Below, in pieces: positions 7,100 to 52,918 of a DNA stretch of 61,359 nt (position 1 is its first letter; the number at the start of each line of letters is the position of its first letter). Position numbers and translations under genes: made by a program. The DNA comes from a virus. The notes beneath the pieces were generated by a model that searched no databases, had not been told where the DNA came from, and saw nothing but the letters and a program-made list of their open reading frames with translations. The DNA is taken from the IMG/VR virus record IMGVR_UViG_3300044816_000008, positions 1 through 61,359 of that record. One strand, given 5' to 3'.

Positions 7100-7301
7100 G
7101 CTAGAGATAGGGGACTCGATCCTATCCCCTAATGGTAAGCGATTCGTCGTGACTGCTGTGCTAGAGCCGTTGGATCAGGTCATTGTGAACACGCTCACGG
7201 AAATCCACTTCGGTTCCCAGAACGAAAAGCTAGGGTGGGATATGAAACGGTTCGTTTTCAGCCCTAAAGACATGGTGAAAGTTGAGGTCGCATCGGAATG
7301 A
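7080..7301 (+). CDS. Small beta-barrel-like protein, 73 aa, possible relative of the LPG array
   Basis: ATG at 7080 (a GTG at 7071 is an alternative). MLIQAHELEIGDSILSPNGK is followed by a VTAVLEP strand. The layout (an L-x-x-GD turn near the start, then a strand ending V-x-A/E-V) resembles the nine LPG proteins directly downstream, so it may be a distant first member. It lacks the LPG motif. Its stop overlaps the next ATG. Confidence 0.6.
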   Translation: MLIQAHELEIGDSILSPNGKRFVVTAVLEPLDQVIVNTLTEIHFGSQNEKLGWDMKRFVFSPKDMVKVEVASE

Positions 7302-7513
7302 TAGTCCTCCCCGGTTTGAAGCTGACGAAAATAGATTCCCCCTATGAAGACAATTCGTTAAGGATACTTGAAGTCAACTACGCCGCTGAATCTCGAAGCC
7401 AATGCCGGTGGAGTGGAGAGTGGGTCGGTTCCCATCCGGATTGGGCATCAATCTGGACGGTTCATGCTTGGTTGAGAAATGGTTGGGTGCCAAATGATTA
7501 TCCTGCCCGGTGA
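7298..7513 (+). CDS. LPG-motif paralogue 1
   Basis: First of nine tandem genes that share one design: start M-(I/F)-x-LPG, a strand ending in V-(D/N)-Y or similar near residue 25-30, an aromatic R/Y-x-W strand near residue 40, and a C-terminal W-x-x-GW helix. Here the protein is 71 residues: MIVLPGLKL, LEVNYA, WLRNGWVP. The size and pattern suggest a small barrel. The genes overlap by 4 to 50 bases, so they are translated from one message. Function unknown. Confidence 0.75.
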   Translation: MIVLPGLKLTKIDSPYEDNSLRILEVNYAAESRSQCRWSGEWVGSHPDWASIWTVHAWLRNGWVPNDYPAR

Positions 7514-7712
7514 TTACACCTCTCCCCCCGAATCGGATCGTACTCCTATTCGCATTACGGTTCTGGACCTAAGCAACACGCAGGTCATGCCGTTCGTTCG
7601 TTATCGGTTTGTTAATGGGGATAACTACGTAAACTATGAAGACACCCACTTTGCTTATTCGCTAATGTCCGAACACTTTATCCGTTTTCACTTCACGGCG
7701 GTGGATTCATGA
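7494..7712 (+). CDS. LPG-motif paralogue 2
   Basis: MIILPGDYTS opens a 72-residue protein; the ATG at 7494 is chosen because it puts the LPG motif at the N-terminus as in the other copies. ITVLDLSN and FVRYRFVNGDN match the array's two core strands. The usual GW end is replaced by FIRFHFTAVDS, so the C-terminus has diverged. It overlaps copy 1 by 20 bases. Confidence 0.7.
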   Translation: MIILPGDYTSPPESDRTPIRITVLDLSNTQVMPFVRYRFVNGDNYVNYEDTHFAYSLMSEHFIRFHFTAVDS

Positions 7713-7906
7713 TCCTGTTACCCGGCCAGAAGTGGGATAATCCCTCCTTCACTTCAAATGGTTCCTGCTTGATAACGGCAGTGGACTATGCAATCCTCGA
7801 AAATGTGGAATACGAGTGGACCTCCAGACCACAACTTAATCTTAATCCCTGTGGGGTTTCGCGCTTTAAAGAATGGCTACGTGGTCAGAGAATGGTGAGA
7901 GTATGA
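7709..7906 (+). CDS. LPG-motif paralogue 3
   Basis: A 65-residue copy: MILLPGQKW, then ITAVDYA and VEYEWTS core strands, and a C-terminal FKEWLRGQRMVRV helix where the second Trp is lost. ATGA overlap with copy 2. Confidence 0.7.
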   Translation: MILLPGQKWDNPSFTSNGSCLITAVDYAILENVEYEWTSRPQLNLNPCGVSRFKEWLRGQRMVRV

Positions 7907-8127
7907 TCCTTCTTCCCGGTATGCGCTTTCGCTCTCCGTATGGTGGTGCTGACGATTTTCTTGTCACGGAAATTAACCTCGGCTTGGAGCGATATTCTTA
8001 TCGGCGTTTAGGTGTCCACGATGGTTACGTGGGTTCTGTCGAGCACGAAAGGTTTGGTAGCGCACAAATCCTCTTCCTAAGAAACTTTCACCAGATCAGG
8101 GGACTCAATCATGTTCCTACCCGGTGA
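7903..8127 (+). CDS. LPG-motif paralogue 4
   Basis: A 74-residue copy starting MILLPGMRF at the ATGA overlap with copy 3. Core strands VTEINLG and YSYRRLG. The C-terminus (QILFLRNFHQIRG) has lost both Trp residues. Confidence 0.7.
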   Translation: MILLPGMRFRSPYGGADDFLVTEINLGLERYSYRRLGVHDGYVGSVEHERFGSAQILFLRNFHQIRGLNHVPTR

Positions 8128-8347
8128 GACTTATAAGCGTTCTATTGACTCTGCTTTCTATGTAACGATTACAGAGTTCGACGCTGCCCCTAACGAAGAG
8201 TTCGATCCTAATGATAGTGCCATAATCCGCTATCAATGGAACGATTCTCCCTTTAATCATTTGGACACGCAACGGCACATGATGGGAGAAGATTGGTATG
8301 CCTATAATCCTGCCGGGGACCATGCTCAGACACCGACACGAAACTGA
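8111..8347 (+). CDS. LPG-motif paralogue 5
   Basis: MFLPGETYK opens a 78-residue copy with ITEFDAA and IIRYQWND strands and MGEDWYAYN near the end. After that it runs 12 residues into the next gene in another frame (50-base overlap). The normal stop seems to have been lost, so the tail is probably new sequence. Confidence 0.65.
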   Translation: MFLPGETYKRSIDSAFYVTITEFDAAPNEEFDPNDSAIIRYQWNDSPFNHLDTQRHMMGEDWYAYNPAGDHAQTPTRN

Positions 8348-8501
8348 CTACGTCATCATCGAATTAGTTGACTACAACGAGTATGAAACTATGGACTACG
8401 GGCTCTATAGTAGACGCAATAGGCGTGAGCGCGGTAATAAAGGTATTCCTATGAGTTGGATACACTCATGGGGGCAGAGCGGTTGGCGGGTGAGCGAATG
8501 A
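8298..8501 (+). CDS. LPG-motif paralogue 6
   Basis: A 67-residue copy starting MPIILPGTML, with one extra residue before the motif. IIELVDYN and YGLYSRRN strands; the end, WIHSWGQSGWRVSE, keeps the full W-x-x-x-GW helix. Confidence 0.7.
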   Translation: MPIILPGTMLRHRHETDYVIIELVDYNEYETMDYGLYSRRNRRERGNKGIPMSWIHSWGQSGWRVSE

Positions 8502-8719
8502 TAATTCTACCGGGGGCAATACTTGATCGTGATGGTCATGGTTATCACGTGTTCGTAACAGAGGTCGATTACGGGCGTGGATTCGTGGGTGCTTTTCGAT
8601 ACGACATGCGTAGCAATATAACTAATCAGTGCGCTCTTAATCTCTCTAATAGGAACGATTCCTACCCTATGGATTATATTGAGAGTTGGACTCAGGATTC
8701 GGGGTGGCGTATCCGATGA
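8498..8719 (+). CDS. LPG-motif paralogue 7
   Basis: A 73-residue copy: MIILPGAIL, VTEVDYG, GAFRYDM, and the C-terminal MDYIESWTQDSGWRIR. Closest in layout to copy 6. ATGA overlap at both ends. Confidence 0.72.
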   Translation: MIILPGAILDRDGHGYHVFVTEVDYGRGFVGAFRYDMRSNITNQCALNLSNRNDSYPMDYIESWTQDSGWRIR

Positions 8720-8916
8720 TAATCCTCCCCGGACTTAGGCTCAATGACAGTAGCAATTATAATTTCCTAACGATTATTGCAGTCGACTATGCCCAATATA
8801 TCCCTCTGATTCAGTACCGTGGTAGCTGGCATTCTGCTGATTATATTGCCCACCACGTTGATCTTGAAGATGTACATGAGTGGTTAAAGGAGGGTTGGCA
8901 TGTTTCTACCCGGTGA
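8716..8916 (+). CDS. LPG-motif paralogue 8
   Basis: A 66-residue copy: MIILPGLRL, IIAVDYA, LIQYRGSW and DVHEWLKEGWHVSTR. This copy and copy 1 best represent the consensus. It overlaps copy 9 by 17 bases. Confidence 0.72.
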   Translation: MIILPGLRLNDSSNYNFLTIIAVDYAQYIPLIQYRGSWHSADYIAHHVDLEDVHEWLKEGWHVSTR

Positions 8917-9163
8917 CTTTGTAGACGACTCCTACCATATGGGCGTTGTTGACTTTATGGATATGCGGCAGGGTTTTGGTGAATGGTACGTACAGTGGAC
9001 AGATGGCTGTAACGAAACCTTTACCTCCCCCGGTATCTTGACCTATAGCGAAAATGAACTATCTCACGTCAACCTTCAACACCTTAATTTTTATGAGCGC
9101 GCCGAAATGCGCGCCCTGCATCGTCAAGTAAGCAATGGACCCCCACCGCTTTTACCGTTCTAA
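8900..9163 (+). CDS. LPG-motif paralogue 9, extended
   Basis: The last and longest copy, 87 residues: MFLPGDFVD, MGVVDFMD, WYVQWTDG. The C-terminus is different: a helix (RAEMRALHRQV) and a proline-rich end (NGPPPLLPF). The amidoligase gene starts 42 bases later, and the two probably share a transcript. Confidence 0.68.
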   Translation: MFLPGDFVDDSYHMGVVDFMDMRQGFGEWYVQWTDGCNETFTSPGILTYSENELSHVNLQHLNFYERAEMRALHRQVSNGPPPLLPF

Positions 9164-9204
9164 TAACTGAATATAGTCACGTTTAACCTTTACAAGGGAG
9201 AGTT

Positions 9205-10767
9205 ATGCCTGAATACGAATATGATGTTCCCGCTGTAGCAATTAGGGAATATTTTAAGCGGTTCGATCTGCCGTTGAGGATTTCACTGGCGGACATGCCA
9301 GAGGCGTCCGTTATGCGGAAAGTCCGTTACCGCGCCGCCCAGCTTGAGGAGCGTTGGAATGCGTTGCTCAAGGGCCTCACAATTCACGAAATCCTGATCC
9401 CCGAGGGTAAGATCGTCGTGGATCGCCGTAATCAGTTCAAGATCGTGCCGGGTGACTACACGCTTCTCGCTCAGGAGACGTTGCTGACTGAGTTGCGTTC
9501 CGTGAATATCAACAACGTAGCTGTGGACACTGTAGCTGCTGAGGTTGAGCCGCTGCTTGCTCCGCGATTCACGCTCAATATTTCCAACAATCCCGTCCGG
9601 ATCACGACAAAGAACGAATCACGTCGGGCTGCTGCTGAAGAGATTCTCGCTAAGGAATACAACAACCGACACGCCCCACAAGCGAACGGTGGCACGATCA
9701 CGGTTAGTGATGCCAGCAAGTTGCTCACAGTGGCGAAGGATGTGCATACTCGTCAGTTGGTCCTCTACCGCGCTATCTTGAAGCAGGGCATGATCGTGAG
9801 CTACGCTAAGCCAATCGTTCGGCACGACACGTCCGCAAATCTGGAGCGCTACCTGTCCAAGCGTAAGGGTGACTTGAAGTGGGATGTGGTCAGGGATGAT
9901 GTCATTTCGACGCTTCCTATCGCGGAACACGGCACAAAGTCCTCCCGAACGTGGGGCATCGAAGTTGAGTCCGGTGGCGCTCGTGGTATCGGCGCTCCCG
10001 AGTACTGGGACCGTAAGGGTGATGGTTCACTCTATTCGGCCTACAGTGACAGCGACGATGAATATGACGACTACGATGAGGACGGCGGCGGTGATTGCGG
10101 TGAGTTTGTTTCGCCCATCCTGCACTCGTTCCATTCACGAGGGTTGGAGACGCTTGTCGAAAAGCTCCAGACGCAGCCTCAGAACGATTCGGCGGGTATC
10201 CACGTCCACGTTGGCGCTAAGGACCTGACGGCGCGACAGATCGGCGGTTTGGTATTCGCCTACGAAATGATCGAGCCCCTGATCGAGACGAGCTACATGC
10301 GTGAGAATCGTGAGTATTGCAAGAATCGTCGCATTGATGAGACGATGGCTATCTTGAAGGCGTCCAAGTCCACGAAGTACAAGACGTACAACGAGTGGCA
10401 GCAGTCAGAGGATTATGACCGCAATGAAGGCTCATCGTACTCTCGCAACTCCAACGGGCACTACATTCCTGCCGGTGATCGTTACGTTTCGCTGAATCTG
10501 CACGCTCTCGATGCTCACAAGACGGTCGAGTTTCGTGCTATGGGACCAAGATACGACTACCTTCCTCTGATACAATGGAGTTACTTCTGCCGAGAAATGG
10601 TAAACTGTGCTAAGGCGGACACACCGTCCAAGCTTTGGAGCAGCGTTAGGCAGTTCTCCGATGTTCTTGAAATTTTCAAGGCATATGGTAGTGAATCTGC
10701 GGGTAACGTAGATCACGAACTCCACAACATGACCGCTCGGGAATTGGAGTTGGTCGAAGAAATCTAA
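9205..10767 (+). CDS. Amidoligase-family enzyme (COOH-NH2 ligase, GCS-like fold)
   Basis: A 520-residue protein with a good GGGAGAG ribosome site. The C-terminal 270 residues carry the amidoligase_2 pattern: WGIEVES (about 250-256), DRKGDGSL (about 270-277), an acidic insert (SDDEYDDYDED), CGEFVSPIL (about 298-306), AGIHVHVGA (about 330-338) and HKTVEFRAMG (about 439-448). Family members join an amine or ammonia to a carboxylate using ATP. Residues 1-240 match nothing I know and may bind the substrate. An amidotransferase gene lies 1.4 kb downstream and could supply ammonia. The family call is firm; the substrate is unknown. Confidence 0.82.
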   Translation: MPEYEYDVPAVAIREYFKRFDLPLRISLADMPEASVMRKVRYRAAQLEERWNALLKGLTIHEILIPEGKIVVDRRNQFKIVPGDYTLLAQETLLTELRSVNINNVAVDTVAAEVEPLLAPRFTLNISNNPVRITTKNESRRAAAEEILAKEYNNRHAPQANGGTITVSDASKLLTVAKDVHTRQLVLYRAILKQGMIVSYAKPIVRHDTSANLERYLSKRKGDLKWDVVRDDVISTLPIAEHGTKSSRTWGIEVESGGARGIGAPEYWDRKGDGSLYSAYSDSDDEYDDYDEDGGGDCGEFVSPILHSFHSRGLETLVEKLQTQPQNDSAGIHVHVGAKDLTARQIGGLVFAYEMIEPLIETSYMRENREYCKNRRIDETMAILKASKSTKYKTYNEWQQSEDYDRNEGSSYSRNSNGHYIPAGDRYVSLNLHALDAHKTVEFRAMGPRYDYLPLIQWSYFCREMVNCAKADTPSKLWSSVRQFSDVLEIFKAYGSESAGNVDHELHNMTARELELVEEI

Positions 10768-10776
10768 GGACATGCA

Positions 10777-11448
10777 TTGAGTAGAGCGCTTTGTAAGGTT
10801 GAGAACTGCGATAGGCAACGTCGGTCGAAGTTAGGCTATTGTCAATTGCATTACAAGCGTTCTCTCAGGGGTGGTGACATGACCGCTCCAGTGCAGGGCC
10901 CCCATCAGTGGACATGTTCAGTGCCTGACTGTAATCGAGTTAATGCTCTAAGAGGATATTGTGAACCACATTCCAGAAGGATGAGACTGGGGCTCCCACT
11001 AGATACCCCAATTAGAGTTGTGCAACCCGGTAGAACCTGTTCACATCCGGGCTGTGATAAGCCTTATGCGGCTAATGGTTATTGTCGTTTGCACAATGAA
11101 CGAAACCAAAGTGGTCGTGATATGGATCGTCCTATTCGTCCAAACCCGGATGAGTGGACTGATTTTTATCTGAATAAGGATGGCTACATTCAAAGGCACC
11201 GTCGTCATAACGGTAAGACTCAGATTGAGATTCAGCATCGACTAGTTATGGAAGGTCACCTAGGTCGCAAGCTTTATCCCGGCGAGAACGTGCATCATAT
11301 CAACGGGATAAGGAATGATAATGATATTGAGAATCTGGAGCTCTGGATTTCTACTCAACCAAGCGGCCAAAGGGTGAGTGATCTTATCAAGTGGGCGGAG
11401 AAACTATTGATGAGGTACGCACCCGACCGTTTGACAACTCGCATCTGA
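10777..11448 (+). CDS. HNH homing endonuclease with three zinc-knuckle repeats
   Basis: TTG start with AAGGA upstream. Residues 6-110 hold three C-x(4)-C...GYC-x-x-H units (CKVENC...GYCQLH, CSVPDC...GYCEPH, CSHPGC...GYCRLH). Then comes an HNH core: HRLVMEGHLGR, ENVHHINGIRNDN, IENLELW. The N-terminal fingers probably direct DNA binding. It sits between the amidoligase and the next gene as a likely mobile insertion. The protein at 47933 is a one-finger relative with the same core and the same QPSGQRV tail. Confidence 0.85.
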   Translation: MSRALCKVENCDRQRRSKLGYCQLHYKRSLRGGDMTAPVQGPHQWTCSVPDCNRVNALRGYCEPHSRRMRLGLPLDTPIRVVQPGRTCSHPGCDKPYAANGYCRLHNERNQSGRDMDRPIRPNPDEWTDFYLNKDGYIQRHRRHNGKTQIEIQHRLVMEGHLGRKLYPGENVHHINGIRNDNDIENLELWISTQPSGQRVSDLIKWAEKLLMRYAPDRLTTRI

Positions 11449-11475
11449 TCATATAGAATTATTAGGAGGATTATA

Positions 11476-12135
11476 TTGGAAAGCGTTATCGATTTTAAAG
11501 ACATCAAAAAGGGTGATCGCTTAAAGATTGGGATTCAGGGGCTAACGGGCTTAACTTCATTCTATCGTTACGCTACCGCCTTTCAGGATACGCTGGTCAC
11601 TGGCAGGTATGCCGAGAATCCTGCGTCCCAGTATGTCAACGTGCGCTTTGACGATCCGAAACGCCCCTATAACGACGCTCCCTACAAGGATTCGCCTCAC
11701 CCTAATGACTCGCTTTATGGTCCTTATCATTCGACGCTATCGCATCGGATTGATGAGCGAAGCGCTGAATTCAGGGGCAGAGAACGGAGTCAATCATGGA
11801 CAATCATTTACAAAATAACGGAGGAAACAGTGACAACACAAATCGAACAGGCTCAGGCCGACATTAAGGCAGCAGAGAACCTCTTGAGGAACGCTCAGGA
11901 CAATCTCGCTAAGGCAACGGCACCGAAGGTTAGTAAGCGTCAAGAGTTTGTTGACAAGCTCAACGTTATTCCAACCGGGTCACTTATCACGTTTGGATCA
12001 ACCGTTGTTCTTATGAAAGCGTATGGTGCAACCAATACGTGGATTAAGGACACGGGCCGAACAAGGACTGCGGCAGAATTATTTGACGATGGATACTCGC
12101 ACCGCAATCTAAAGGTTCTGTACGAAAACAAGTAA
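11476..12135 (+). CDS. Hypothetical protein with coiled coil, 219 aa, nested internal start
   Basis: TTG start with AGGAGG upstream. Residues 1-115 form a beta-rich domain starting with an SH3-like IKKGDRLKI turn. Residues about 116-155 are a coiled coil (TQIEQAQADIKAAENLLRNA). The C-terminal 65 residues are a second beta domain (PTGSLITFGSTVVLMKAYG). At 11830 an in-frame GTG follows a perfect CGGAGGAAACA site, so a 101-residue C-terminal protein may also be made. It lies between the amidoligase and amidotransferase and may belong to their system. No family recognised. Confidence 0.7.
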   Translation: MESVIDFKDIKKGDRLKIGIQGLTGLTSFYRYATAFQDTLVTGRYAENPASQYVNVRFDDPKRPYNDAPYKDSPHPNDSLYGPYHSTLSHRIDERSAEFRGRERSQSWTIIYKITEETVTTQIEQAQADIKAAENLLRNAQDNLAKATAPKVSKRQEFVDKLNVIPTGSLITFGSTVVLMKAYGATNTWIKDTGRTRTAAELFDDGYSHRNLKVLYENK

Positions 12136-12208
12136 CGGCTCTTAACTAGAGCGGTTTAATAGCAATAACTAAATAGCGCAGCAATAAGGCTGCAAGAAGG
12201 AGAATATC

Positions 12209-13456
12209 ATCTGCGGTGTAGGCGGCTTTTCATTAAGCGAAAGAAGCACGGTTAATTCTAGGGAATTAGCACACAAACTATTAGGCGAACTGGTCTGGCG
12301 CGGGAACATGGCTTCAGGCTATGCGTACAGCGACGACAAGGGCAAGATCGGCTACTACAAGGATGCACTGCCCGGTGGGCAGCTTCCACTTAAGGGACTT
12401 CCGCGTGGGGCAAAGACCGTCATTCTTCACACGAGGTTGACGACTCACGGCACGGAGCGGAATAACGACAACAATCACCCCGTTATTTCGCCCAATAACA
12501 AGCTGGCGCTCACTCACAACGGAGTTATCTGGAACGAGCAGGAAATCCGTAACGATGTCCTGATCGGCGTTGATCTACCAGAGGTTGATACCTCGGTGAT
12601 CGGTGCTCTCATTCAGAACTTTGGGATTGAGGGTGTCGGTGAGCTTTCGGGTGATGCGGCAATCGCGTGGCTTGAATCGGGTAAGGGCGACGAGCTCAAC
12701 ATTGCGCGGCTTGAATCTTCTCCGCTGTGCTACACATGGTTGCTGGACGGTTCGTTCGTCTATGCGTCCACTCCGAGACTCCTGATGGATGCTCTGGATG
12801 AAATGAAGCTGGATTATGGTGCGGTCTTCATTATGGACGAGCGTGTCTACTTCAAGGTGGTCAACGGTATCATCATGGAATTTGAAGAGACGCCCAAGCT
12901 CAAGTCCTACACGTACAACTGGGATTCCTACCGGACCCGTCAGCTTACGAACGGAGGAAGTCAGTCGAAGAGTTTCCGGAACATTTACGATCCCAACACG
13001 CAAACGTGGTCATTCGAAGAGTTCCCGCCCAAGGACGAGGATGAGTATGACTACGATGGTGACGAGCAGAAGGCTATCACGGCTGCCGAGCAGGCGAAGG
13101 TTCTTGTCTCAGGGGACACAGACGACGACACTGACGAGTTTGACGAGAGTGACGATGTGTACTACACGGTCGATCAGGACGGCGACTTCCAGACCTACGC
13201 CACGTTGGACAAGCTTGAGAACGAGTTGAAGTGGTACGCCGCGTTGCACTCTGGCGAGGATCAGTACGGAGCAACCGGAATGGTTCGCTGGATCGAGCAC
13301 TTCATCGATGTCGGCGCGTTCGAGCTTGACGGTAAGACTTCCGTGAGTTGGGTCGATGATCCCAATGAGGTCTACATCCACGAAGACCCGGACGGCGAGA
13401 GCCTGTCCTATATCCGCGAGGGTATCGGATACCTTCAGCGTGCGATTGGAGCCTAA
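12209..13456 (+). CDS. Class II glutamine amidotransferase, AUC start codon
   Basis: Read from ATC at 12209 the 415-residue protein begins (M)CGVGGFSLS. Cys2 is the N-terminal nucleophile of the family after Met removal. The other key residues are in place: RLTTHG (76-81), NHP (89-91), THNGVIWN (102-109), DTS (127-129). Counted from the Cys, Arg75, His79, Asn103, Gly104 and Asp126 match Arg73, His77, Asn98, Gly99 and Asp123 of GlmS. No ATG, GTG or TTG lies between the upstream in-frame stop (12185) and the Cys, while AAGGAG sits six bases before the ATC. The C-terminal 180 residues hold an acidic insert like that in the amidoligase. It should release ammonia from glutamine for a partner synthetase. 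Confidence 0.85.
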   Translation: MCGVGGFSLSERSTVNSRELAHKLLGELVWRGNMASGYAYSDDKGKIGYYKDALPGGQLPLKGLPRGAKTVILHTRLTTHGTERNNDNNHPVISPNNKLALTHNGVIWNEQEIRNDVLIGVDLPEVDTSVIGALIQNFGIEGVGELSGDAAIAWLESGKGDELNIARLESSPLCYTWLLDGSFVYASTPRLLMDALDEMKLDYGAVFIMDERVYFKVVNGIIMEFEETPKLKSYTYNWDSYRTRQLTNGGSQSKSFRNIYDPNTQTWSFEEFPPKDEDEYDYDGDEQKAITAAEQAKVLVSGDTDDDTDEFDESDDVYYTVDQDGDFQTYATLDKLENELKWYAALHSGEDQYGATGMVRWIEHFIDVGAFELDGKTSVSWVDDPNEVYIHEDPDGESLSYIREGIGYLQRAIGA

Positions 13457-14281: not shown

Positions 14282-14426
14282 CATCACTAAACTAATCGAT
14301 GAATTACGCGATTGGCGTGGGGGGACAGATTCCGAATTCCACTTGCGGGTTCGCGCCGCTGATGCTCTCGAAATTCTTCAAGCCAAGATCGATGAACTCA
14401 ACGAGGATAGGGAGCTAGAAGGATAA
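14274..14426 (+). CDS. Small helical protein, 50 aa
   Basis: ATG at 14274 overlaps the previous stop. MVDITKLIDELRDWRGG is followed by a second helix (AADALEILQAKIDELNEDRE). It resembles actinophage small coiled-coil proteins; function unknown. One-base overlap with the next start. Confidence 0.6.
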   Translation: MVDITKLIDELRDWRGGTDSEFHLRVRAADALEILQAKIDELNEDRELEG

Positions 14427-14923
14427 TGACTGACTATCTCAATAGGGTCAAAGAAGCTGCGAACACGGCACGCAACAATGCCGCACAGCTAGAAGCCCGT
14501 CTCAAGGCTCAGATTAAGGCAGAATTGGCTAAGGATGCAACCGCTGTGGATATTGCAGCAGCAGAAGCATTCCGATCCGGCCACTCAAAGACGGCCATTG
14601 GCCGCTATATGGGCACCAAGGATTTCAACACTTATAACGATGCTATCCAGCGCGGACTCCGCTTACTTGGTAACAACGCCCCCAGTGGACTCTCCATTAT
14701 GCATGACGGTAGCGGCTTTTATACCATTGAGCGCGACGGCGAGAAGGCTATGTTCAGTGCGAACTATGTCGACGGTGAGCGCACTATGTTCTTCGCTGAA
14801 ACCCCCCTCTGGGATGAAACGTATTCTGTAAGAAACACCCTCGTTGCAGAACTGGACCAAGTGCAAATTGGTAGCCTCTATAACGAAGTAATGAAGTGGA
14901 TGAAGACACATGAAAAGACTTAG
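14426..14923 (+). CDS. Hypothetical protein with possible HTH, 165 aa
   Basis: Residues 1-45 form a long helix (ARNNAAQLEARLKAQIKAEL). Next comes AEAFRSGHSKTAIGRYMGTK, which has the spacing of a helix-turn-helix. The C-terminal half is beta-rich (GFYTIERDGEKAMFSANYV). DNA binding is plausible from the middle segment only. Confidence 0.6.
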   Translation: MTDYLNRVKEAANTARNNAAQLEARLKAQIKAELAKDATAVDIAAAEAFRSGHSKTAIGRYMGTKDFNTYNDAIQRGLRLLGNNAPSGLSIMHDGSGFYTIERDGEKAMFSANYVDGERTMFFAETPLWDETYSVRNTLVAELDQVQIGSLYNEVMKWMKTHEKT

Positions 14924-23678: not shown

Positions 23679-23748
23679 CCCCAGTACTAATTGAGTAGCG
23701 GTTGCGAAGGTCCAAACTTCGTCCGATGGTTCGACTCCATTGCTGGGT
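23679..23748 (+). tRNA. tRNA-Trp (anticodon CCA)
   Basis: Acceptor CCCAGT/GCTGGG with one G-T pair, anticodon arm CGAAG-GTCCAAA-CTTCG, and T arm GATGG-TTCGACT-CCATT. The D arm is weak (TAAT/GGTTG). About 70 bases, no encoded CCA in the standard place. It sits between ssb and the primase gene. Confidence 0.75.
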
Positions 23749-47932: not shown

Positions 47933-48349
47933 CTACGCTAGGGCAGATGGGTCATATTGAGATAGAATCTCTTTTGCCCATGCAACTTTATCTTCTACTC
48001 GCTGTCCGCTGGGTTGACTGACTACCCAAAGCTCTAGGTTAACGAGACGGTTATCATCCTTCACACCATTAATGTGATGCACATTTTCGTTATGTAATAA
48101 TTTACGGCGAAGATGCCGCTCCATGACTAGGCGATGCTCATATATAATTGATTGTTTGCCGTTCTCTCTTCGAGCACGAGCGACATAGCCCTTCGCTGTC
48201 TGAAACCAAGGTCCCCAAGTGGTGAATTCCTTAGGAGCACCTATTGGTCTATCATCGACTACTCGACCAGTGTGCCATCGAGTATAATGGCCCTCGCAAT
48301 ACTTAAGACGCCGAGCCGGTCTATCACATGAATCTACTTTGCATTTCAT
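47933..48349 (-). CDS. HNH endonuclease between terminase and portal
   Basis: 138 residues: one zinc knuckle (CKVDSCDRPARRLKYCEGHY), then HRLVMERHLRRKLLHNENVH-HINGVKDDN and LVNLELWVVSQPSGQRV. It is a shortened relative of the enzyme at 10777. Inserted within the terminase-portal pair, as free-standing homing endonucleases or packaging-associated HNH proteins are. Either is possible. Confidence 0.85.
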   Translation of the reverse strand: MKCKVDSCDRPARRLKYCEGHYTRWHTGRVVDDRPIGAPKEFTTWGPWFQTAKGYVARARRENGKQSIIYEHRLVMERHLRRKLLHNENVHHINGVKDDNRLVNLELWVVSQPSGQRVEDKVAWAKEILSQYDPSALA

Positions 48350-48371
48350 GTACTAATTCTATCATACACCC

Positions 48372-50129
48372 CTACCAACTATAATCGTGGGTGTACCAAC
48401 CGCTCGTGAGTATCTGATCATAGGGCTGCGTGACAATAGTACCGGGGTCCATGCCAGCAAATGGTGAGTTAATAAGGTCGTCCAACTCACACGAGGCATA
48501 CCACGCAGCGTCGGCAGCGTCCGGAGACTTGACGCCACGCTTCTTCATGGAGTCCTTAGACTCAATCAGCATTCCACCACTCGTGATACTGAATTCGTAC
48601 TGAATTCCACCGAGCTCATCGATCAGTTCCTCATCGGTTCCATCGATATCAATGAGTCCTTGGAAGCAACGGCGACGCAGTTCACTGTAATGATACGCGC
48701 GCTTGTTGTGGTACGCACGACGGTCAGGAGAAGAAGCCGATCCGTAGATTTCTACGATCAGGTATCGTCCTCGGCACAGAACATACAGCGGGTCAATGAC
48801 ACCGGAACCCATACCAGAGGCGTCGATCCGAACCTCTTTAGCACCGAGAGCGAGGGCATATTCGTGGATACGTTCTGTCGTTCCTTGGATAGTTCGTTCG
48901 AGCCCATCCTTGAACTCCGAGCGCGACACGAATGGGGCACCCTTCCAAGAGTCAACATATCGCAGACGACCACCGCGTAGAGGTTCAAGAGTTTCCTCAC
49001 TTAATAGATCAGTGCCAAGTGGCTCATTGGTCACAGGGTCGGTTGCTTGTACGGTTCCACGTTCGTAACTGTAGACAAAGGTCGAGTCGTTACCGAGCCG
49101 CGCAATATCGACGCCGAGCACGAGATACGGGTTCTCCAAATCTGGGAATACCAAGGCATTGCGTGCCTGAGCCAAGTCATATTCGCTGAACAGTGTATTG
49201 CCCGCATCGTATGCGAACTCACCCAGCACGCGAGACACAAACCGTGCCGAATCTTCGCCGTATTCTTTCTTCTTGTTTTCAACGTACTCTTCGTCCGTTA
49301 GTTTATCAAGAGCGTCTTGTGGCATGCCGAGGCCAAGGGGCTCATAGAAGTGGCATGTGCAGCGACGATCACCGTGGAAGTTAGGCGAGTCCATAACACT
49401 GATCGTGTGCAGACTCCATGCGCCAGTGTCTTCCCGGAAAATCTTTCCGAAGTGGGACAATGGATTCGTGGGGTTACCAATCAGTACACGACGAGAATTA
49501 TTGTTCGTCGTAATGTTGTCAAGTCCTTCAATCATGGACTCGCTCAACCCGCACGCCTCATCACCAATGGCGAGAACATAGCCATCGTGGAAACCCTGAA
49601 AGGCGTCGTCTGCCTTGTTGTCCGGTGGTTTACGGCCCTGAGCAACAAGGTTGCCAACATCGTCTTTCCACTGGTTCTGCTGAGTAATGTATCCGGGTAG
49701 TGGATGATCGGGCAATCCCTTCGTGTCCTGACCAAGCTTAACCTTCTTGAGGTACTCCTTGTAGAGCGCGTGCGAAAGCTGATGGACCCTGCGAATTTCT
49801 CGCCAGAGAATACCAGAAACCTGATCGGCGCTGGGGGCCGTCGTCGCCGCGAACACCTTATTAATGGGGCGAGTGTCAATCCACCAGCACACCATGATGG
49901 ACGCCCAGAACGACTTGCCAACACCGTGCCCAGCTTTGACCGCGACGTTAGCATTACTAACTACGGCGTAGGAAATCTCTTCCTGCTTCCAGTAGAATGT
50001 AATACCAAGGCGATCTTTCGCCCAGAGAACCGGGTCGTTGAAGTAACGAGCATTGAGTTCCTCTAGCTCAAGTTGCTCTAGATAGCCGTCGATAACTCCC
50101 GGTAGGTTGCTAATGTCCTTATCCGTCAC
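48372..50129 (-). CDS. Terminase large subunit, 585 aa
   Basis: ATPase domain: Walker A VKAGHGVGKSFWAS (about 63-76), Walker B VLAIGDEACGL, coupling motif VLIGNPTNP. Nuclease domain: VLGVDIARLGNDSTFVYSYE, EVRIDASGMGSGVIDPLY, and DAADAAWYASCEL near the end. It cuts concatemers and drives DNA into the prohead. The start overlaps the small terminase gene by 11 bases. Confidence 0.94.
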   Translation of the reverse strand: MTDKDISNLPGVIDGYLEQLELEELNARYFNDPVLWAKDRLGITFYWKQEEISYAVVSNANVAVKAGHGVGKSFWASIMVCWWIDTRPINKVFAATTAPSADQVSGILWREIRRVHQLSHALYKEYLKKVKLGQDTKGLPDHPLPGYITQQNQWKDDVGNLVAQGRKPPDNKADDAFQGFHDGYVLAIGDEACGLSESMIEGLDNITTNNNSRRVLIGNPTNPLSHFGKIFREDTGAWSLHTISVMDSPNFHGDRRCTCHFYEPLGLGMPQDALDKLTDEEYVENKKKEYGEDSARFVSRVLGEFAYDAGNTLFSEYDLAQARNALVFPDLENPYLVLGVDIARLGNDSTFVYSYERGTVQATDPVTNEPLGTDLLSEETLEPLRGGRLRYVDSWKGAPFVSRSEFKDGLERTIQGTTERIHEYALALGAKEVRIDASGMGSGVIDPLYVLCRGRYLIVEIYGSASSPDRRAYHNKRAYHYSELRRRCFQGLIDIDGTDEELIDELGGIQYEFSITSGGMLIESKDSMKKRGVKSPDAADAAWYASCELDDLINSPFAGMDPGTIVTQPYDQILTSGWYTHDYSW

Positions 50130-50672: not shown

Positions 50673-50954
50673 CTAGATAACGGTGAGGTTACCGGCCTTC
50701 TCAACGGGCGTATCGGAACCATCAACCCATTTGGCGTAGATAGAATAAACACCCGGCACGAGGGAAGGAAGCTGACGAAATCCCACGTCTGGTCCCTGAG
50801 TAACCACGGCGGTCCATGCAGAGTCTGGAATAGCGTCAGGACGGATGGTCGAAGCAACGATGGCATACTGCTGGGCGACGGCAGCTACACCATTCTTCAT
50901 GGCACGGATAGCAACGAAGCGGTTAGCCTCACGCTGTAGTGTTACATCCTTCAT
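50673..50954 (-). CDS. Hypothetical virion-associated protein, 93 aa
   Basis: The N-terminal half is helical (MKDVTLQREANRFVAIRAMK); the C-terminal half looks like an Ig strand set (PGVYSIYAKWVDGSDTPVEK). Its ATG overlaps the stop of the repeat protein, so the two are co-translated. Confidence 0.6.
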   Translation of the reverse strand: MKDVTLQREANRFVAIRAMKNGVAAVAQQYAIVASTIRPDAIPDSAWTAVVTQGPDVGFRQLPSLVPGVYSIYAKWVDGSDTPVEKAGNLTVI

Positions 50955-52918
50955 GACAACGCCTCAATCGTGCTCGTATAGTTATCGATGTGCAAATCAG
51001 CGACATCCTTATTCAAGTATAGCGTAGCAGTAATGTCGGCAATGTAGAGCGATGCGCCGGTCTTGATCGCACCCTGCAATGGTCCCATTGTGATAACAGG
51101 AACACCCAGTAGTTCTGCTGAAGCGATTCCATCAGGAGAACTAGTAAGTGTTGTCGCTACTGTCGGTACACCGAAAGCTTCTACCGAGCTTGTGCCATTG
51201 GGCGTGACGATAAGCAGGAAGGTCACCGTTGGTGTACCCATTGCCCCGCCGGATGCGATACCACTTGGGGATACAGTGAGCGCCCCGGTTACGGTAGGTA
51301 CACCGAATGTTTCAGCACTAGCAATCCCACCCGGAGAAGTGGTCAGCGCACCACTAACTACAGCAGTACCAAACGCTTCAGCACTAGCAATCCCTGTGGG
51401 GGAAGTGGTTAGGGCACCACTGACAACAGGAGTACCAAATGCAGCAGCAGACGCAATACCAGTCGGCGTGACGATACCAGCAGTGACAATAGTTGGAACA
51501 CCGAACGTCTCGCCACTAGCGATTCCACTTGGCGAGACGGTTAGAACACCCAGCGTAACTACAGGAGTTCCGAATGCCTCACTGCTAGCGATACCAGTTG
51601 GCGAGCTCGTAAGGGTTGCCGTAATGACAGGAACGCCGAATGCACCGCCTGTTGCAATCCCCGTAGGAGATACAGTTAGCGTCAGGGTAACGGTAGTGCT
51701 ACCAAAGATTTCAGAGCTAGCGATCCCAGTAGGAGATACTGTGAGTAGCTGCGATACTACCGTCGTGCCGAACGCACCAGCGCTAGCGATTCCAGTGGGA
51801 GATACAGTAAGCAGATTGGTTACTGTGGGTACGCCGAATGCTTCAGCAGAGGCAATGCCCGTAGGAGACGCCGTGAGTGGCGTACTAATTACAGCAGTAC
51901 CGAACGCTTCAGAAGAGGCAATGCCCGATGGAGAAACGGTAAGTGCTCCGCTAACAACAGTAGTGCCAAACGCCTCAGCACTAGCGATACCAGTAGGGAC
52001 TACCGGTCCACCAGCCATCGTGATAGCAGGAGTACCAAACGCCTCTGCTGTTGCAATCCCCGTAGGAGACACGGTAAGAGCACCACTTGCGGCGACTGTT
52101 CCAAATGCTTCAGCACTAGTGATTCCCGTAGGGGAGCTAGTAAGCACTCCGCTGGCGGTCGGATTACCAAAGGCGTCAATAGCAAGGCTCAGTACCAGCA
52201 TGCCTCGGAAGAAGCCAAGAGAAGAAGCACCAATGCCCGCTGGGGATGCAGTAGTGGCAGCCGCTGCCGGTGCATTAAGCGCCCACGTCAGGGTCTCTTT
52301 CGAGCCACCGCCCGAGTAGGTGAGGTTTCCTGTCGGCGTGAACGAAGTAACAGCAGACTGGTCACCAAATCCGAGAGAGTAACCGTAACCATCTGTTGTA
52401 GAGAAAACTACAGACGTATCTGTGAGCTTGGTAGGGGTTGGAGTACCGCTCCACGTTACGCCAGTGTAAGTAACACCGGTAGGCAGAACAATACCTACAG
52501 CGCCGAACAAGTCGTTAGTACCCGTTAGTGCCGTGATTGCAGGGTTGGCTGCGGCTATCGCAACAGCCGTCGCCGTTGACGCCTTGACGAAAGTAGTACC
52601 CGCTGGGTACTCGAAAATTTCAAATACCAATGGATAGTTAGAACCATTGGCAGTAGTCGTGAACGTATCGGAACCGGCAGCAGTTCGATACCAAATGTAA
52701 AGGCCACCGATATTGATGGCGGAACCGTTAGTTGGTAGTGTCCATCCAGCGGGCGTGGTGGAAGTTACAGCACCGTATGCAACGACAAGGAGAAAGCGTC
52801 CGGCAGTAGGGACAAAGTTCGTACCAGAGACAACAACGCCACCGTTAGGGTCTACTGTATGACTTGTTGAAGCGTTGCGGGGTGCCGCAATTACTACCCT
52901 ATTGAGGTACTGAGCCAC
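50951..52918 (-). CDS. Repeat-rich surface or fibre protein, 655 aa
   Basis: Residues 1-235 form a beta domain (VVVSGTNFVPTAGRFLLVVA, YPLVFEIFEYPAGTTFVKAS). Then come about 16 tandem copies of a 22-residue unit with the core SPTGIASAEAFGTPVVSGAL, and a last 40 residues without repeats (GASLYIADITATLYLNKDVA). The copies vary at several positions, so they diverged after amplification. Such strings often form extended fibres or head decorations. It sits upstream of the terminase genes with three other virion-like genes. Confidence 0.7.
   Translation of the reverse strand: MAQYLNRVVIAAPRNASTSHTVDPNGGVVVSGTNFVPTAGRFLLVVAYGAVTSTTPAGWTLPTNGSAINIGGLYIWYRTAAGSDTFTTTANGSNYPLVFEIFEYPAGTTFVKASTATAVAIAAANPAITALTGTNDLFGAVGIVLPTGVTYTGVTWSGTPTPTKLTDTSVVFSTTDGYGYSLGFGDQSAVTSFTPTGNLTYSGGGSKETLTWALNAPAAAATTASPAGIGASSLGFFRGMLVLSLAIDAFGNPTASGVLTSSPTGITSAEAFGTVAASGALTVSPTGIATAEAFGTPAITMAGGPVVPTGIASAEAFGTTVVSGALTVSPSGIASSEAFGTAVISTPLTASPTGIASAEAFGVPTVTNLLTVSPTGIASAGAFGTTVVSQLLTVSPTGIASSEIFGSTTVTLTLTVSPTGIATGGAFGVPVITATLTSSPTGIASSEAFGTPVVTLGVLTVSPSGIASGETFGVPTIVTAGIVTPTGIASAAAFGTPVVSGALTTSPTGIASAEAFGTAVVSGALTTSPGGIASAETFGVPTVTGALTVSPSGIASGGAMGTPTVTFLLIVTPNGTSSVEAFGVPTVATTLTSSPDGIASAELLGVPVITMGPLQGAIKTGASLYIADITATLYLNKDVADLHIDNYTSTIEALS
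51100..52170. repeat. About 16 tandem 66-base coding repeats
   Basis: Each unit encodes 22 residues with a SPTGIAS-AEAFG core. Copies differ by base and residue changes. The opposite strand is also open for 418 codons over the same stretch, because the repeated codons never make a stop in that frame. Confidence 0.88.

Follow-up and report, generated by a model that had tools for sequence, protein, structure and literature searches.

The window analysed here is a 61,359-base virus record (IMG/VR IMGVR_UViG_3300044816_000008) with the genes of a tailed phage, among them a primase, a portal protein, a terminase, a tape measure protein and an endolysin. Between positions 7298 and 13456 it holds, all on the plus strand, an array of small open reading frames (ORFs) that share an N-terminal LPG motif (the LPG array), an amidoligase gene, an HNH endonuclease gene, a gene for a 219-residue protein and a class II glutamine amidotransferase gene (Table 1). 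A preliminary description of the region had placed an amidoligase at 9205 and a class II amidotransferase at 12209 close together, and Pfam and PHROG profiles bear out both assignments; it had also put the 219-residue protein between the two enzymes, where it does lie, and had left unmentioned the HNH gene that shares this interval. The comparisons presented below suggest that the region encodes a two-protein glutamine-dependent amidation system of the phage, which we consider probable. They draw on a sister phage, the IMG/VR contig IMGVR_UViG_3300043472_000004 (61,723 bases), which is the sole close relative found and is ~87–100% identical to the window in aligned blocks. Since the nearest named phage for the primase is Clavibacter phage CN1A (48% identity), and most of the weaker matches come from phages that infect actinobacteria such as Gordonia, Microbacterium and Arthrobacter, the host is likely an actinobacterium.

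The first enzyme of the pair matches the Pfam family Amidoligase_2 (PF12224) with an E-value of 1.2e-14 and 55.3 bits, against a curated cutoff of 22, as well as a PHROG amidoligase family (E 3e-15). Its catalytic domain spans approximately residues 245–500 and is preceded by an N-terminal segment of ~240 residues which, in a search with this segment, was recognisable in the sister phage only. The conserved positions comprise R248, GIEVE 251–255, D273, S275, E300, HVH 333–335, Y371, N431, T440, E442 and R444, and the ligase-site pattern of glutamine synthetase (GS)-like enzymes (GxExE, E, HxH and ExR) is kept in full as GIEVE 251–255, E300, HVH 333–335 and TVEFR 440–444; a loss of ATP-site residues, which the preliminary description had named as a finding that would speak against it, is therefore not what the protein displays. 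Across 29 ligase sequences R248, E253, E255, D273, S275, G331, H333, H335, Y371, T440, E442 and R444 are invariant, and E300 is nearly so in a set of 12. In the AlphaFold2 model most of residues 240–500 is confident, the catalytic domain having mostly a predicted local distance difference test score (pLDDT) >85, and most of residues 1–210 is poor. The top nine Foldseek matches of this model, none of them reaching E 0.001, are all ATP-dependent ligases of the GS fold (YbdK, glutamine synthetases and glutamate-cysteine ligases). With a ratio of nonsynonymous to synonymous substitution (dN/dS) of 0.10 relative to the sister (residues 1–465), the gene is under purifying selection.

Both enzymes had been described as carrying unusual acidic Asp/Tyr inserts. 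The inserts are there, the one in the amidotransferase lying in the C-terminal tail and the one in the ligase forming a catalytic-domain loop that links the DGS motif to the conserved Glu. In 17 related loci (including L019, L024, L045 and L047) this loop contains a Cys-rich CxCxCxxC...HC...C stretch that is also rich in Asp and Glu, whose cysteine spacing suggests that it may bind metal in the manner of a zinc knuckle. The window loop keeps the acidic residues and has one Cys only, and the sister loop is three residues shorter. Because relatives bear a Cys-rich acidic stretch at the same place, the Asp/Tyr insert is best regarded as a diverged version of a loop that varies across the family.

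The second enzyme, read in the frame that starts at 12209, matches Pfam GATase_6 (E 4.5e-19, 69 bits, cutoff 27) and PHROG 14519, a glutamine amidotransferase family (E 5e-24). It consists of a catalytic domain (approximately residues 1–235) followed by an acidic C-terminal tail, and the acidic stretches of this tail are not common to the homologues from Arthrobacter phages and LUZ24. All of the phage proteins compared have Cys2, Arg76, His90, Asn104-Gly105 and Asp127, and the family profile aligns these positions with their counterparts in the glutaminase domain of GlmS (1XFF), the closest solved structure by sequence. GlmS also has an isomerase domain, which the phage protein lacks; in the phage, the partner is a ligase encoded by a gene of its own. 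Here too the dN/dS value relative to the sister (0.05, residues 1–173) points to purifying selection.

The start of this gene is unusual. Its frame opens after a stop at 12185 and offers no ATG, GTG or TTG ahead of the catalytic Cys, codon 1 being ATC at 12209 and codon 2 TGC (Cys); the frame in the preliminary description thus stands, with a first codon that is not a common start. ORF callers begin the gene at 12308, and the catalytic Cys is then lost. Among 56 loci, the codon ahead of this Cys is ATG in 52 and ATC in the window and the sister only, the pattern search having failed in two distant loci. The sequences of window and sister differ upstream of the ATC, and the sequence that they share opens at the ATC itself: codons 1–33 (12209–12307) are identical in DNA, while the 173 comparable codons contain 27 silent and four amino-acid differences, so that the identical stretch may reflect either a recent co-conversion event or a constraint acting where translation starts. 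Given the AAGGAG site upstream, the lack of any other start before the Cys and the window–sister identity that opens at the ATC, the best reading is that ATC serves as the start in both phages; for the sister alone, translation from an ATG farther upstream followed by cleavage of a leader is also possible.

The strongest argument that the two enzymes belong together comes from their neighbourhoods. Scanning IMG/VR with amidotransferase sequences alone retrieved the sister and 51 other viral loci, and an amidoligase lies within ~1.3 kb of the amidotransferase in 48 of these 51. It is located upstream on the same strand in 22 of the pairs (often a few bases apart), upstream on the opposite strand in 24 and downstream on the same strand in two. 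Two of the three unpaired loci (L022 and L037) are contig-end cases with just 116 and 195 bases of upstream DNA. The neighbourhood analysis of phage amidoligases that had been proposed as a check gives a different count from the other side: among 80 loci collected through the amidoligase, some of them truncated, 39 have an amidotransferase, 29 a gamma-glutamyl cyclotransferase, 19 both and 31 neither, so that the amidoligase occurs without an amidotransferase in 41. This asymmetry, in which the amidotransferase is seldom found without the amidoligase and the reverse is common, is what would be expected if the amidotransferase supplies ammonia to the ligase. The 24 opposite-strand pairs, of the group L018–L044, are transcribed divergently.

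In the window the two genes lie on the same strand, ligase first and ~1.4 kb apart, a spacing due to the intervening HNH and 219-residue protein genes; in L015, L016, L024, L045 and L047 the amidotransferase directly follows the ligase. The pair was already known from Arthrobacter and LUZ24-like phages and is a real, conserved enzyme pair of phages: named members include Arthrobacter phages Salgado and Ottawa and Pseudomonas phage LUZ24, and tblastn searches with each enzyme had 14 Arthrobacter records in common. A first scan of bacterial genomes with an alignment led by the window sequences gave no match, and in a second scan, from which 80 loci were kept, an amidoligase adjoins the amidotransferase in one only (L066, a contig of a Microthrixaceae metagenome-assembled genome that is possibly phage). 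The pairing counts also indicate which neighbouring genes need not be included in work on the pair.

The following mechanism would be consistent with these data. The N-terminal Cys of the class II amidotransferase would split glutamine to release ammonia; the amidoligase would activate a carboxylate at the expense of ATP, presumably by way of an acyl phosphate like other ligases of the GS fold, and would then join the ammonia to the activated acid to give an amide. That glutamine-derived ammonia feeds a ligation was the core idea of the preliminary description, and it is well supported by the 48 of 51 paired loci, the retained catalytic residues and purifying selection; that the two proteins are active and coupled, and the nature of their substrate, we infer. 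Several considerations weigh against this account. Nearly all of the evidence is comparative, and gene neighbourhoods show that the two enzymes are associated, which is not the same as taking part in one reaction. There is some redundancy among the viral loci (L019–L021, for example, are near-identical), and the independent cases of pairing therefore number fewer than 48. The Foldseek matches of the ligase model all fall short of E 0.001, in part owing to low model confidence over the N-terminal 200 residues. With an apparent ATC start, it is somewhat doubtful that the amidotransferase is produced at a useful level, and we found no biochemistry for any phage member of these families in the open-access literature.

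With regard to the substrate, we judge a peptidoglycan or envelope precursor to be the tentative first choice, a small metabolite or a free peptide to be possible, a protein side chain to be fairly unlikely, and a nucleobase, or any other class, to be unlikely. Two suggestions have been made for related enzymes, as quoted in PMC10580990: a cell-wall target that blocks superinfection for phage phiEco32, and the synthesis of a secondary metabolite for mycobacteriophage Marvin; a test of either was not found in the open-access literature. Around the related loci there is no other recurrent enzyme that names the substrate. The pair is kept together in phages of several host groups, and we found no report of an amidated target in the open-access literature. 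The Cys-rich insert of the ligase and the ATC start in the window lineage provide new handles on this question. A broader scenario, which we regard as rather doubtful, is that the pair represents a widespread uncharacterised amidation system with a chemistry of its own, in which the Cys-rich, probably metal-binding insert would help to set the substrate in many members; the decay of this insert to an acidic loop in the window lineage, together with an ATC-throttled glutaminase, would then mark the window pair as a divergent variant with an altered target.

A more specific proposal for the nucleobase class is that the phage DNA contains a modified base with a carboxyl group and that the pair converts this group into an amide, as the ammonia counterpart of CmoX/CmoY from Synechococcus phage S-B43. 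A phage amide ligase acting on carboxymethylcytosine in DNA is proven, and the CmoA-CmoX-CmoY system likewise involves phage-encoded, ATP-dependent amide formation, with a cluster of relatives that contain a glutamine-hydrolysing domain (PMC12783734); in addition, the pair is found in the region upstream of a helicase in the window and in many relatives. However, CmoY is an asparagine synthetase-like, AMP-forming ligase and not an Amidoligase_2 protein, and the S-B43 system needs CmoA and a cytosine carboxymethyltransferase, which were not seen in the window. Moreover, no DNA methyltransferase appears among the 25 of 29 Pfam families listed for the 89 window proteins, nor is one listed among 96 neighbours of the related loci, and we consider this proposal improbable.

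It could also be argued that the two enzymes have unrelated jobs and are neighbours only through a common neighbourhood of gene exchange, as the relatives are phages with mosaic genomes and their amidoligases often occur without an amidotransferase. Against this, adjacency is maintained in at least three layouts, divergent transcription included, and in phages of hosts that range from Arthrobacter to Pseudomonas, and the pair stays adjacent while most of the flanking genes change; such a coincidence seems very unlikely.

The closest known arrangements resemble this two-protein system in different ways. Arthrobacter phages Salgado (gp98/gp99) and Ottawa (65/66) have the same two families in the same order and on the same strand, beside a helicase region, at ~31–34% identity to the window for the amidotransferase and 22–24% for the ligase. 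Unlike the window, they add a gamma-glutamyl cyclotransferase just upstream, lack an LPG array and start the amidotransferase with ATG, and the Arthrobacter phage ligases bear a helix-turn-helix-like segment at their own N-terminus. LUZ24-like Pseudomonas phages also encode an amidoligase (gp18) followed by a class II amidotransferase (gp19), but within a larger module that includes gp16 (a COOH-NH2 ligase), gp21 (a RimK-like ATP-grasp protein) and gp22 (a cyclotransferase). We sought these extra elements in the window, namely the gamma-glutamyl cyclotransferase of Arthrobacter, LUZ24 and Bacillus phages and the ATP-grasp protein and second COOH-NH2 ligase of LUZ24, and discarded them as candidate components: in tblastn searches of the window, the LUZ24 queries detected none of the additional parts of the module and three phage cyclotransferases had no significant match, and GGACT is absent from the Pfam families listed for the 89 window proteins. 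In Pseudomonas phage UFV-P2 an HNH endonuclease lies between amidoligase and amidotransferase, as it does in the window (PMC3890496).

Table 1 Features of the amidoligase–amidotransferase region of the window
Feature	Positions	Strand	Basis or remark
LPG protein 1	7298–7513	+	Neighbour; not in sister
LPG protein 2	7494–7712	+	Neighbour; not in sister
LPG protein 3	7709–7906	+	Neighbour; in sister
LPG protein 4	7903–8127	+	Neighbour; in sister, 52% identical
LPG protein 5	8111–8347	+	Neighbour; in sister
LPG protein 6	8298–8501	+	Neighbour; in sister
LPG protein 7	8498–8719	+	Neighbour; sister copy fuses the LPG 7 start to the LPG 8 body
LPG protein 8	8716–8916	+	Neighbour; AlphaFold2: five-stranded small barrel, one helix
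LPG protein 9	8900–9163	+	Neighbour; in sister
Amidoligase_2 (GS-like carboxylate-amine ligase), 520 residues	9205–10767	+	Pfam PF12224, conserved residues, AlphaFold2 model
Acidic loop of the amidoligase, ~residues 279–298	10039–10098	+	Alignment and Cys counts
HNH endonuclease, 223 residues, between the enzymes	10777–11448	+	HNH_3 E 2e-9; PHROG HNH E 2e-22; not part of the enzyme system
219-residue protein	11476–12135	+	No convincing family match; not part of the enzyme system
AAGGAG, Shine-Dalgarno-like site, 6 nt ahead of ATC	12197–12202	+	Sequence
Class II glutamine amidotransferase, 415 residues, apparent ATC start at 12209	12209–13456	+	GATase_6, PHROG 14519, catalytic residues

The remaining genes of the region, that is, the LPG array, the HNH gene and the gene for the 219-residue protein, appear to be neighbours that are gained and lost independently. 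The array consists of nine tandem, mostly overlapping small ORFs that open M-(x0-3)-LPG and ends 41 bases ahead of the amidoligase ATG (the preliminary description, which had recognised the array, gave 42); the sole other ATG-started frame with this motif in the window is one of 31 codons at 49418. The preliminary description had joined the array, the ligase, the 219-residue protein and the amidotransferase into one four-part system, in which the LPG proteins might be the substrates modified with ammonia. We consider this highly improbable and reject the array as a part of the system: it does lie on the same strand as the ligase and close to it, and its N-terminal motif is invariant in 15 paralogues, but it occurs at none of the other ~50 loci examined that have the pair (only the window and the sister carry it), its copy number falls from nine in the window to six in the sister, its genes evolve fast while the enzymes do not (dN/dS from ~0.25 to >1, from small samples), the C-termini of its products are not conserved, the model of LPG 8 (pLDDT 86) is a compact small β-barrel with weak structural matches to small uncharacterised phage proteins, and the 219-residue protein is missing from the sister. 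The preliminary description had itself named related phages with either enzyme alone and no LPG array as evidence against its proposal, and for the LPG part these results count as such evidence. Fold searches with the LPG proteins gave no match below E 0.001, the weak matches in a viral library being mostly small uncharacterised phage proteins, and a match of LPG 8 to T7 gene 4.5 was disregarded at an E-value of about 1.

The HNH gene between the two enzymes is probably a free-standing homing endonuclease. At the same junction the sister has a different HNH protein, of 144 residues and with insignificant similarity to that of the window, and the two phages differ unusually strongly at the adjoining 3' end of the amidoligase gene (window 10604–12209 versus 9391–10102 of the sister, L001). 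With different HNH genes at one junction and a divergent adjoining ligase 3' end, the ligase–amidotransferase junction looks like the site of separate homing-endonuclease insertions accompanied by co-conversion. A second HNH-type frame, on the minus strand at 47936–48352, is 48% identical over the matching part to the one at the junction.

Two further proteins were considered as a third component of the amidation system and set aside. For the 219-residue protein, the sister, which does have the pair, gave no homologue, and neither did any of the amidotransferase loci collected by the time of the search; the label "coiled-coil" that had been attached to it seems to be a reading of a Gln/Ala-rich segment. 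A promoter-like site lies just ahead of its gene at 11431–11459, as a consensus match only (11 of 12 consensus bases). The 165-residue helix-turn-helix-like protein encoded downstream (14426–14923) is conserved at 21 examined loci, and Clavibacter phage CN1A has two copies of it, in a genome where neither enzyme was found.

Outside these genes, the segment 6500–15500 of the window had no match in Rfam. The primase ORF begins at 23702, inside a tRNA-Trp called by ARAGORN at 23680–23748; either this call may be false or the primase start may be wrongly placed. A minus-strand ORF at 50951–52918 contains 66-base tandem repeats at 51311–51439 and 51833–51978.

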